Assembly: GCA_029268615.1 (NCBI GenBank)
Contig: JAQWNM010000016.1
Location: 1-46,198, forward strand
Direction of reading: 5' to 3'
From: SAR86 cluster bacterium
Lineage (GTDB): Bacteria; Pseudomonadota; Gammaproteobacteria; Magnimaribacterales; Magnimaribacteraceae
Length of the DNA stretch: 46,198 bases
The notes under the pieces were generated by a model that did no database searches, had not been told where the DNA came from, and saw nothing but the letters and a program-made list of their open reading frames with translations. Positions 35,891 to 39,831 of this stretch are shown here, piece after piece. Each line of letters starts with the position of its first letter. Positions within the stretch are counted from its first letter, which is position 1. The translations under genes and the position numbers were made by a program.

Positions 35891-36702
35891 AGCAAATTAT
35901 TAGCTTGTATCAGGTTGATGCTTTTACAAATGAGATATTTAAAGGAAACCCTGCTGCAGTATGTCCGATTGAAGAGTGGTTGCCGGATAGAACAATGCAG
36001 CTAATAGCTTCTGAAAATAATTTATCAGAAACTGCATTTGTTAATTTAAATACCTCGCCTTTTTCCATTAGATGGTTTAGTCCTATCTCGGAAGTTGATC
36101 TATGTGGGCACGCAACTCTTGCTTCGGCCAGAATTCTTTTTGATGAATATCTTTCCATAGAGGAAAGTCAAATAACATTTGGATCAAAAAGTGGAGAATT
36201 GAGAGCATTTAAAAAAGATGAATTAATTTATCTAGATTTTCCAGTTGATAATCCTAAACAGGTAGAAGAGCATCCTTTAATTTTAAAGGCACTTGGCATC
36301 AAACCTAAATATTTATTTAAGGGTAGAGATGACTTCTTAGCAATCTTTGAAAATGAAGAAATAATACAGTCAATTTATCCAAATTTTAATGTTGTTTCAG
36401 AATTAGATTCAAGAGGCCTGATAATTAGCTCTGTCAGCTCTAATGAAGATTTTATTTCAAGATGTTTTTATCCTAAGTTAGGGGTTGAAGAAGACCCAGT
36501 TACTGGTTCGGCGCATACTTTACTTACACCTTATTGGGCAAAAGTATTAAATAAAAGTAAATTAAGTGCTCGCCAATATTCTCTTAGAGGTGGACATTTA
36601 GAATGTCAGTTAAAAGGTAATAGAGTTTTACTTGGTGGAGGTTCTGTTAGGTATATGGAAGGAAAAATTGACTTACGATCTTTCCTAAATAATAAACTAT
36701 GA
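35887..36702 (+). CDS. PhzF-family isomerase-like protein
   Basis: 271 aa. The start YQVDAFTNEIFKGNPAAVCP is the family hallmark, with ENNLSETAFV carrying the conserved Glu (about residue 46), FSPISEVDLCGHATLASARI, and the C-terminal half beginning PKLGVEEDPVTGSAHTLLTP. PhzF of phenazine synthesis catalyses an isomerisation by proton transfer; most family members in other operons have unknown substrates. The gene overlaps its neighbours by four bases on both sides, so the three genes are translated as a unit. No other phenazine genes are present. Confidence 0.93.
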   Translation: MKQIISLYQVDAFTNEIFKGNPAAVCPIEEWLPDRTMQLIASENNLSETAFVNLNTSPFSIRWFSPISEVDLCGHATLASARILFDEYLSIEESQITFGSKSGELRAFKKDELIYLDFPVDNPKQVEEHPLILKALGIKPKYLFKGRDDFLAIFENEEIIQSIYPNFNVVSELDSRGLIISSVSSNEDFISRCFYPKLGVEEDPVTGSAHTLLTPYWAKVLNKSKLSARQYSLRGGHLECQLKGNRVLLGGGSVRYMEGKIDLRSFLNNKL

Positions 36703-37457
36703 ATATAGATAAGTATAAATACCCTATGGATGAACTGCCTATAGTTATTCAGGAATCATTAAGAGATGAAATATGTAATTTAGAATTTAGTGGATTTAAG
36801 GATGTTTATAAGAGTAATAAAGAATCTTCTTTTGCAACAAGAATCTACAGAAATGAAGATGGAGAGTTTCTAGTTACTTGTATTACTGATATGCCTGAGG
36901 TAACTCCAAAGATGATTGATTGGTGGTTTGGTTGGCACTTACCTCGAACAGAAAGATATAAATTATGGCATCCTCTAGCTCATGTTTCTTCTATCTTAAA
37001 AGAAGATAATTCTATTTATCCAACAGATAAAGAGAAATACATTAATAAGGATTCATATGTTAAGGAATACATAGGCAAAGATCTAAATCACCTTTGCATA
37101 AGCTTTGTAGACCCTCAAGAGTTTGGCTTTCCTATTCTAAATTCCGAAGAAGAAACAGCAATTTGTGCCCATGTTCAAGATTTAAAAAAAAGGTTATCTA
37201 TAGCAAGCCTAACTCATTTAGTTGCTAAATATACTGATGGGTCAAGGATGCAAAGAAGTTTTTGGTTAGGAGCAAATCTTAAGCATAGTAATAGTTTTTT
37301 AAACTTTCTATTTAACCGATTATTAAATAATAAAAAAATAAAATCTATTTTGTTGAAAGAAGTAATAACTAAGAATTTACTCTCCCATTGCGCTGAAGAA
37401 ATGAACCATTTATCTAAATTTCTACCCTCACTTTATCGAGACTTACATAAGTCTTAA
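36699..37457 (+). CDS. PhlG-like (DAPG hydrolase) C-C hydrolase family protein
   Basis: 252 aa. The central motif TPKMIDWWFGWHLPRTERYK followed by LWHPLAHV, and the C-terminal HCAEEMNHLSKFLP, match the PhlG-type fold as I remember it: zinc is held by His and Glu residues, and the enzyme cuts a C-C bond in 2,4-diacetylphloroglucinol. Here WHP..H and the HCAEEMNH segment could supply the ligands. A carbon-carbon hydrolase acting on an aromatic or acyl ketone is inferred. The ATG overlaps the PhzF stop. Soluble, no signal peptide. The substrate is probably not the antibiotic itself. Confidence 0.75.
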   Translation: MNIDKYKYPMDELPIVIQESLRDEICNLEFSGFKDVYKSNKESSFATRIYRNEDGEFLVTCITDMPEVTPKMIDWWFGWHLPRTERYKLWHPLAHVSSILKEDNSIYPTDKEKYINKDSYVKEYIGKDLNHLCISFVDPQEFGFPILNSEEETAICAHVQDLKKRLSIASLTHLVAKYTDGSRMQRSFWLGANLKHSNSFLNFLFNRLLNNKKIKSILLKEVITKNLLSHCAEEMNHLSKFLPSLYRDLHKS

Positions 37458-38777: not shown

Positions 38778-38806
38778 TTGCTAGAAATATATTTTATTCT
38801 TATAAT
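38778..38806 (+). promoter_or_regulatory. sigma-70-type promoter for the ATP-grasp gene
   Basis: TTGCTA (38778-38783), a 17-bp spacer, and a perfect TATAAT (38801-38806). This is the best promoter in the window. Transcription should begin near 38812-38814, leaving a leader of about 112 nt before the ATG at 38926. Confidence 0.75.
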
Positions 38807-38813
38807 AGACTTC

Positions 38814-38910
38814 AGCACCGATTTGAATCAGCTTGCGGGTGCTTTATAAATACAGCTAAATAGAGTTCTCTTTGATAAACCTGTTTAGTGAAAGCTGCAG
38901 GTTTTTTATT
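38814..38910 (+). ncRNA. structured 5' leader with terminator-like hairpin, riboswitch or attenuator candidate
   Basis: The leader begins with agcacc (38814-38819) pairing with ggtgct (38838-38843) around an 18-nt loop. It ends with aaacctg (38877-38883) pairing with caggttt (38898-38904), followed by TTTATT, which is the shape of an intrinsic terminator placed before the ribosome site agggaga (38913-38919). The segment cagctaaa (38853-38860) can pair with tttag (38884-38888) or agctg (38893-38897), both inside the terminator loop, so a pseudoknot or alternative fold is possible. I cannot match it to a named riboswitch class. Confidence 0.5.
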
Positions 38911-38925
38911 CTAGGGAGAATATAC

Positions 38926-39831
38926 ATGATCATTGTCATTCACGAAAACAAGGAATGGATCCCTCCATTCGAAGAAGCCTTCAATGTCCTTAATTTAAAA
39001 TATGAATTTTGGTATCTTCCTGAAATTAATCTCAATCTTCAGCAGATTCCTGAAGAAGCAGTTTATTATAATAGAATGAGCGCATCTTCTCATACTAGAG
39101 ATCATAGGTATGAACCGGAATTAGCCATTGGAATTTTAGAATGGTTAGAGAGATATTCAAGAACGGTAGTAAATGGATCAAGGGCGTTAGACCTAGAAAT
39201 AAGCAAAATTAGACAGTACCAAGAATTAGAAAAATATAAAATTCTCACACCCAAGACTTTTGCTACTGCTAGGATCAGTGAAATTATAAATGGAGCAGAC
39301 GAAGTAAATTTCCCTTTAATTTCAAAGCATAATAGAGCTGGCAAAGGATTGGGTGTATATAAATTTCATGACAAGGAAACACTTCAAGAATTTACCAACA
39401 GCAAATCATTTGAAAGTTCTCCTGATGGTATAAATCTTCTTCAACAATTTATACATGCTCCGTCTAATAAAATTATCAGAATGGAATTTATTAATTCTAA
39501 ATTTATTTATGCAGTTGAAGTAGATACCTCAGACGGGTTTGAACTATGCCCCGCAGACGAATGTCAGATTGATTCTAATTGCCCTACAGGTTCAGCACCT
39601 AAATTTAATATTCTAAAAGATTTTGAATTAAACAATCTGTCAAACTATGAAGCCTTTCTTTCTGATAACAACATAGGCATTGCAGGTATTGAAATTATTT
39701 TAGATGAAGATGGAGTGGTTTGGACTTATGATGTTAATACAAATACAAATTATAATTCTGCTGCAGAAGAAAAAGCTAATGAAAGTGCTCCTCTTAAAAT
39801 AGCTGAGTACCTAATGTCACTTGAGTCTTAA
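38926..39831 (+). CDS. ATP-grasp ligase, RimK/glutathione-synthase-like
   Basis: 301 aa from ATG 38926 with the ribosome site agggaga six bases upstream. The N-terminal pre-grasp part contains YYNRMSASSHTRDHRYEPEL and TVVNGSRALDLEISKIRQYQ. The ATP-grasp core follows, with the lysine in FPLISKHNRAGKGLGVYKF (about residues 144-162) and metal-binding acid/Asn residues in VVWTYDVNTNTNYN (about 268-281). A Cys pair sits in CPADECQIDSNCPTG. ATP-grasp ligases join a carboxylate to an amine; RimK-like members attach amino acids to peptides or cofactors. Substrate unknown. Monocistronic and evidently regulated through its long structured leader. Confidence 0.85.
   Translation: MIIVIHENKEWIPPFEEAFNVLNLKYEFWYLPEINLNLQQIPEEAVYYNRMSASSHTRDHRYEPELAIGILEWLERYSRTVVNGSRALDLEISKIRQYQELEKYKILTPKTFATARISEIINGADEVNFPLISKHNRAGKGLGVYKFHDKETLQEFTNSKSFESSPDGINLLQQFIHAPSNKIIRMEFINSKFIYAVEVDTSDGFELCPADECQIDSNCPTGSAPKFNILKDFELNNLSNYEAFLSDNNIGIAGIEIILDEDGVVWTYDVNTNTNYNSAAEEKANESAPLKIAEYLMSLES

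Follow-up and report, generated by a model that had tools for sequence, protein, structure and literature searches.

Upstream of a gene for an ATP-grasp ligase in a SAR86 cluster bacterium lies a 112-nt leader, preceded by a promoter-like site and ending in a terminator-like hairpin just before the ribosome binding site. A preliminary description of the 46,198-nt stretch of DNA analysed here (the window) had read it as a possible new riboswitch or attenuator of no known class, raising the question of what class it belongs to and what it would do for the gene behind it. The promoter TTGCTA-17-TATAAT, the agcacc/ggtgct stem and the aaacctg/caggttt terminator stem with its T tail lie where that description had put them (Table 1).

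Table 1. Features of the leader and of the gene behind it (window coordinates).
Feature	Position	Strand	Basis or remark
Sigma-70-type promoter, TTGCTA-17-TATAAT	38778..38806	+	10 of 12 consensus letters; -10 box equally placed before P1 in related copies
Stretch identical to the metY leader (L093)	38812..38907	+	96 nt
SAM-II aptamer	38814..38868	+	RF00521 match; covariation over 55 copies
P1, agcacc/ggtgct	38814-38819 with 38838-38843	+	sequence
GAUUUG; UUGC; GCUAAA	38820-38825; 38833-38836; 38855-38860	+	pocket letters
P2a	U38828-A38864, C38829-G38863	+	2 pairs
Predicted antiterminator, GCUAAAUAG (38855-38863) with CUGUUUAGU (38881-38889)	38855..38889	+	9 pairs, including two G-U
Intrinsic terminator, AAACCUG/CAGGUUU topped by UAGU-GAAA-GCUG and followed by six T	38877..38907	+	sequence; comparison of 37 leaders
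Terminator arms; six T	38877-38883 with 38898-38904; 38902-38907	+	sequence
Ribosome binding site, AGGGAGA	38913..38919	+	sequence; 3' of the terminator; complementary to 38865-38874
Predicted target gene, RimK/LysX-like ATP-grasp ligase, 301 aa	38926..39831	+	Pfam RimK PF08443; NCBIfam rimK_fam below cut-off

Assignment of the leader to the SAM-II class

A default Rfam scan of the window gave no match. With the cut-off lowered, a search of 261 nt matched the SAM-II riboswitch model (RF00521) to leader positions 38805-38876 over the full model length (30.6 bits, E 2.2e-5), and the match was retained when the whole genome (1.77 Mb) was searched (E 3.5e-5). The default scan had missed the leader because its 30.6 bits fall short of the curated score of 36 bits, a cut-off that is a reporting threshold and not a biological feature. 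As metY leaders of relatives score 36 to 44.7 bits in 6 of 35 genomes, the shortfall would reflect distance from the RF00521 seed, and we still file the leader as SAM-II. Matches to U6atac and RybB in the lowered-cut-off scan were far under their own cut-offs and were taken as chance.

The leader shares with SAM-II RNAs (SAM_alpha, the metA element) a single P1 stem, whose loop holds GAUUUG and UUGC, and an H-type pseudoknot P2 with GCUAAA as its 3' strand, recognised at the sequence level with the triplex predicted. It also has the promoter just 5' of P1 and the intrinsic terminator 3' of the aptamer, and its sister copies stand before methionine genes. Unlike them, it scores below the Rfam cut-off, has a P2a of only two pairs and precedes an ATP-grasp ligase, which is no known methionine gene. 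The pockets of SAM-II and SAM-V are described as nearly identical, SAM being held by three U of the third strand, UUG and UAAA (PMC6061858); in our own transfer of these letters to the window leader, the putative contacts in GAUUUG, UUGC and GCUAAA are all there. We consider it highly probable that the window leader is a SAM-II (SAM_alpha) riboswitch that acts by terminating transcription. The proposal of a riboswitch with a terminator and an antiterminator is thus supported, whereas the suggestion of a new class, made because no known one could be matched, gives way to RF00521: the leader is new as a member of a class already known, and one candidate for a new riboswitch class is removed.

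Conservation and covariation among related leaders

Taken by itself, the leader is unremarkable in folding energy (z = -1.34, equalled or bettered by 23 of 200 shuffles), and its promoter is at chance level, 14 promoter-like sites being found in 4 kb of this AT-rich stretch versus 19.0 expected. The case for the leader therefore rests on comparison, that is, on homology and covariation, which raise it above chance.

Sixty RF00521 matches were pooled from this genome and related ones: 55 with at least 21 bits and the core, and five with 20.2 bits or less and no core, mostly with no gene behind, which were dropped before counting. Two forms are distinguished among the pooled matches, A (GCACCGATTTGAAYCAGCTTGCGGGTGC) and B (RTCGTGATTTGATCCTATTGC..CGAY). 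The alignment comprised 55 aptamers, made up of the pooled core matches and three from ATP-grasp loci, with duplicates removed. Both partners vary in each of the eight tested pairs (six of P1, both of P2a); the fraction of paired cells is 93.6% and falls to 36-47% in slid versions, and the covariation score of 0.572, versus a shuffle value of 0.265, was reached by none of 500 shuffles. P2a is 92.7% paired with two-sided changes, its U-A pair in the window and in the metY twin described below replacing the C-G of most relatives, and GCUAAA is invariant (55/55). The conservation and covariation on which the preliminary description had staked its reading were thus found in 55 related aptamers. 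Counted against the assignment, 60% of SAM-II RNAs are said to have five P2a pairs (PMC6061858), versus two in the window.

The promoter gains from the same comparison. Just 5' of P1, 47 of the 55 copies have a hexamer that agrees with TATAAT in 5 or 6 letters, as compared to about 17% of shuffled upstream stretches, and the best -10 hexamer is 5-7 nt before P1 in 52. SAM-II RNAs have been described with a promoter a few nucleotides upstream of P1 and, in many, a terminator after P2 (Corbino and others, PMC1273637), and the -10 box of the window, 5-7 nt before P1, has this usual placement.

A predicted terminator/antiterminator switch

Of the 40 type-A copies, 37 lead into a terminator, ACCTGTTTAGCGAAAGCTGGCAGGT, with T behind it in most; the three leaders without it all precede OmpW. 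The aptamer strand GCUAAAUAGG of type-A copies is complementary to the 5' half of this terminator. For the window, cagctaaa (38853-38860) had been predicted to pair with two places in the terminator loop, and it is indeed complementary to uuuag (38884-38888) and agcug (38893-38897), the first pairing extending to nine pairs. Over the 37 leaders the terminator helix has 97.0% of its cells paired and the antiterminator helix 91.9%, versus at most 51.2% when slid. No two-sided changes occur in the antiterminator over these leaders because the invariant ligand pocket supplies one of the two strands. A simple terminator scan did not list the window hairpin (38877-38907).

In stepwise folding of the growing leader the antiterminator appears from about nt 38888, before the 3' arm of the terminator is made, with predicted hairpin energies of -8.0 for the antiterminator and -9.7 kcal/mol for the terminator; equilibrium folding of the entire leader without ligand, in which the terminator wins, was counted against the switch. 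Across 29 leaders of other Gammaproteobacteria, downstream pairing of the aptamer strand covers 7.2 bases on average versus 5.2 in shuffles, extending past GCUAAA with differing letters (GCUAAAG/CUUUAGC; GCUAAAGCG/CGCUUUAG), and 28 have a T run; only 9 of the 29 beat shuffles at p <= 0.03, and six have four pairs or fewer.

As the 5' half of the terminator is complementary to GCUAAAUAG, SAM binding should free the terminator, making a transcriptional OFF switch. The anatomy of such a switch, an intrinsic terminator excluding an antiterminator that uses an aptamer strand, is present, judged by sequence alone. Transcription would start about 7 nt after TATAAT, just 5' of P1. When SAM is scarce, GCUAAAUAG would pair with CUGUUUAGU once the latter is transcribed, occupying the 5' half of the terminator so that RNA polymerase would continue into the ATP-grasp gene. 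When it is plentiful, SAM would hold the H-type pseudoknot and consume GCUAAA and the P2a bases in the aptamer; with the aptamer closed, the terminator hairpin would form and transcription would stop in the T run near 38907, giving a short RNA. SAM as the ligand, the OFF direction and the start site are all predictions; the switch very probably stops transcription at plentiful S-adenosylmethionine. Altering GCUAAA would be expected to abolish the response, and altering CUGUUUAG to uncouple termination from SAM. Termination by SAM-II is an idea already published (PMC9373788, PMC2258182, PMC1273637); the metZ leader of S. meliloti, which differs in lineage and target, is likewise predicted to terminate in a SAM-dependent way, yielding a short RNA, the sRNA RZ (PMC9373788).

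A metY twin and other copies in the same genome

Five SAM-II copies are present in this genome, before metY (C9), the ATP-grasp gene (C16), an OmpW-like porin (C4), an AlkB/desaturase-like enzyme with a ferredoxin (C13) and metX (C7). The window copy is letter-identical to the metY leader over the stretch given in Table 1, and the flanks of the two differ, apart from a TATAAT box that is one base further away. The window leader would have arisen by copying of the metY leader, or have been evened out with it by gene conversion. A phage origin was discarded, with no match in phage records. The leader had also been said to be the only one of its kind in the window, which holds for the SAM-II class, as the single other match of model R1 inside the window has an E of 8.3.

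The C4 copy (L092:2278-2931), like those in L097, L098, L106 and L027, lies about 150-180 nt before a gene for an OmpW-family outer-membrane protein, and control may differ at the three relatives in which the terminator is absent. The C13 copy (L094:2418-3967) is a type-B SAM-II before the fatty-acid-desaturase/AlkB-like membrane enzyme and the 2Fe-2S ferredoxin; near it is a thioredoxin-like gene whose homologue in the relative L120 has its own SAM-II.

The ATP-grasp gene and its homologues

The structure model of the ATP-grasp protein (pLDDT 86) has ArgX, LysX and RimK as its nearest folds, at 14-19% identity, so its reaction is probably the coupling of an amino acid to a carboxylate. Cysteines C208 and C213 are invariant in the family and C219 nearly so, in a low-confidence stretch of the model (205-222) that is perhaps a metal or substrate site. 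The gene occurs in one of 35 genomes of the taxonomic family, the present one, and near full length in 6 of 203 of the order, the present one counted. A remnant of another ATP-grasp gene in this genome (L095:1845-2009; C5:141844-142008) has 55 residues at 80% identity with an internal stop, and adjoins a second DAPG-hydrolase-like gene, another such gene lying in the window at 36699-37457.

A SAM-II match at E <= 0.1 was found in 4 of 47 homologue loci. In three SAR86 relatives (G090, G091 and G095, with DNA identical to L052, L047 and L046) SAM-II is followed by metB and directly by the ATP-grasp gene, the metB of L046 being a cystathionine gamma-synthase above the NCBIfam cut-off. In the fourth locus, from an alphaproteobacterium (L082), RF00521 matched weakly about 137 nt upstream of the homologue (25.5 bits, E 0.0012 in 601 nt), with the third strand changed to AGUUG for AUUUG. 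These loci give modest, partly independent backing to SAM control of the ATP-grasp gene. Gene order, laid out for 41 of the 47 loci, revealed no single partner; PLP-enzyme genes (named by eye) neighbor some homologues. No confirmed relative of the protein was found in viral contigs.

Alternative readings of the leader

Control by the aptamer might instead be translational, either as the sole mechanism or as a second lock, the spacer 38865-38874 pairing with the ribosome site (38912-38921) after escape from termination. Ten contiguous pairs can form in the window, in a stem that is part of the minimum-energy fold, and a translational mode has been proposed for part of the SAM-II RNAs, the crystallised one from the Sargasso Sea among them (PMC9373788, PMC6061858). 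However, 25 leaders average 6.2 paired bases versus 5.3 in shuffles, with p <= 0.05 in only one of them (window p 0.15), and the ribosome site lies about 50 nt past P2a, after the terminator kept in 37 of 40 type-A leaders. With pairing hardly above shuffles, we leave a second translational lock as an improbable rival. Membership in SAM-V (RF01826), in another SAM class or in a new one with the GCUAAA core in common is more improbable still. SAM-V has the same pocket letters in a nearly identical pocket, occurs in marine bacteria (PMC6061858) and has a short P2a as in the window; but it is translational, its model has no match at the window leader at E <= 10 (genome best 19.7 bits, elsewhere), and the terminator here is of the type found with SAM-II. 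The long-loop SAM-II model RF01726 reached 14.1 bits (E 3.7) versus the 30.6 bits of RF00521. Hardly credible, finally, is an attenuator with a leader peptide: TTG at 38872 does open a frame running into the gene (38872-39831), with the same extension at the metY leader, but the frame has no regulatory-codon run and is not kept in most related leaders, where the first ORF starts at the gene.

A metY leader copied here recently might also sit idle, with no role for the ATP-grasp gene. This we judge unlikely. The 96-nt identity would be expected of such a copy, 43 of the 47 homologue loci have no match at E <= 0.1, and no SAM-II lies near the gene in two genomes of the same order (G120 and G075; L141 has little upstream sequence). 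Against it, the promoter, the aptamer, the terminator and the ribosome site are each complete, the three relatives have the gene downstream of a SAM-II-led metB, and a SAM-II-like element precedes the L082 homologue. Returning to a working SAM-II switch, its unusual target hints at a role of the ATP-grasp enzyme in sulfur or methionine metabolism. Tentatively, and knowing that it may well be wrong, we offer a joint reading in which the ligase would be an uncharacterised SAR86 sulfur/methionine enzyme that gained SAM control by two routes: in one family by standing second in a SAM-II-led metB operon, and in the present genome through a copied, complete metY switch that begins right behind the -10 box and extends to the T run. 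SAM-II leaders would then be movable regulatory cassettes marking unknown regulon members, here also OmpW and TonB outer-membrane proteins. We found no paper that brings together three or more of ATP-grasp, RimK, metB and cystathionine gamma-synthase.

Distribution and regulon in relatives

RF00521 matches at E <= 0.1 were found in 34 of the 35 family genomes, six of them above the cut-off, compared to 3 and 0 of 14 control genomes. Most SAM-II copies in SAR86-type marine bacteria thus escape default Rfam scans. Model R1 matched at E <= 0.001 in 119 of 202 genomes of the order and 80 of 185 of the class. This exceeds the distribution in a 2014 survey, which gives SAM_alpha only in Rhizobiales and Rhodobacterales (PMC4239095), yet gammaproteobacterial SAM-II was noted already in 2007 (PMC2258182). 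Among the papers found on SAR86 and riboswitches, none reports such a SAM-II leader, judged by title.

The interest of the locus lies in the target and the regulon rather than in the riboswitch class. Behind the sister copies are metY, metX, metB-like and homocysteine S-methyltransferase genes, and copies in relatives also precede genes for OmpW, TonB outer-membrane proteins, peroxiredoxin and a thioredoxin-like protein. In an abundant group, the ATP-grasp enzyme and outer-membrane proteins thereby become probable targets of SAM control; according to one report, SAR86 does not assimilate sulfate and uses organic sulfur sources (PMC11582366). We found no paper linking a SAM-II riboswitch to OmpW. 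In L129 (1619-4162), L130 (531-3065) and further relatives, a type-B SAM-II stands before a TonB-dependent receptor of about 850 aa, possibly a SAM-controlled uptake route. In other Gammaproteobacteria (L179, L183 and L180), SAM-II with the same terminator layout precedes metK-like and metF-like genes (named by eye). At L100 (207-2467), two SAM-II leaders occur in tandem, one before a 1-Cys peroxiredoxin and the next before a Cys/Met PLP enzyme.
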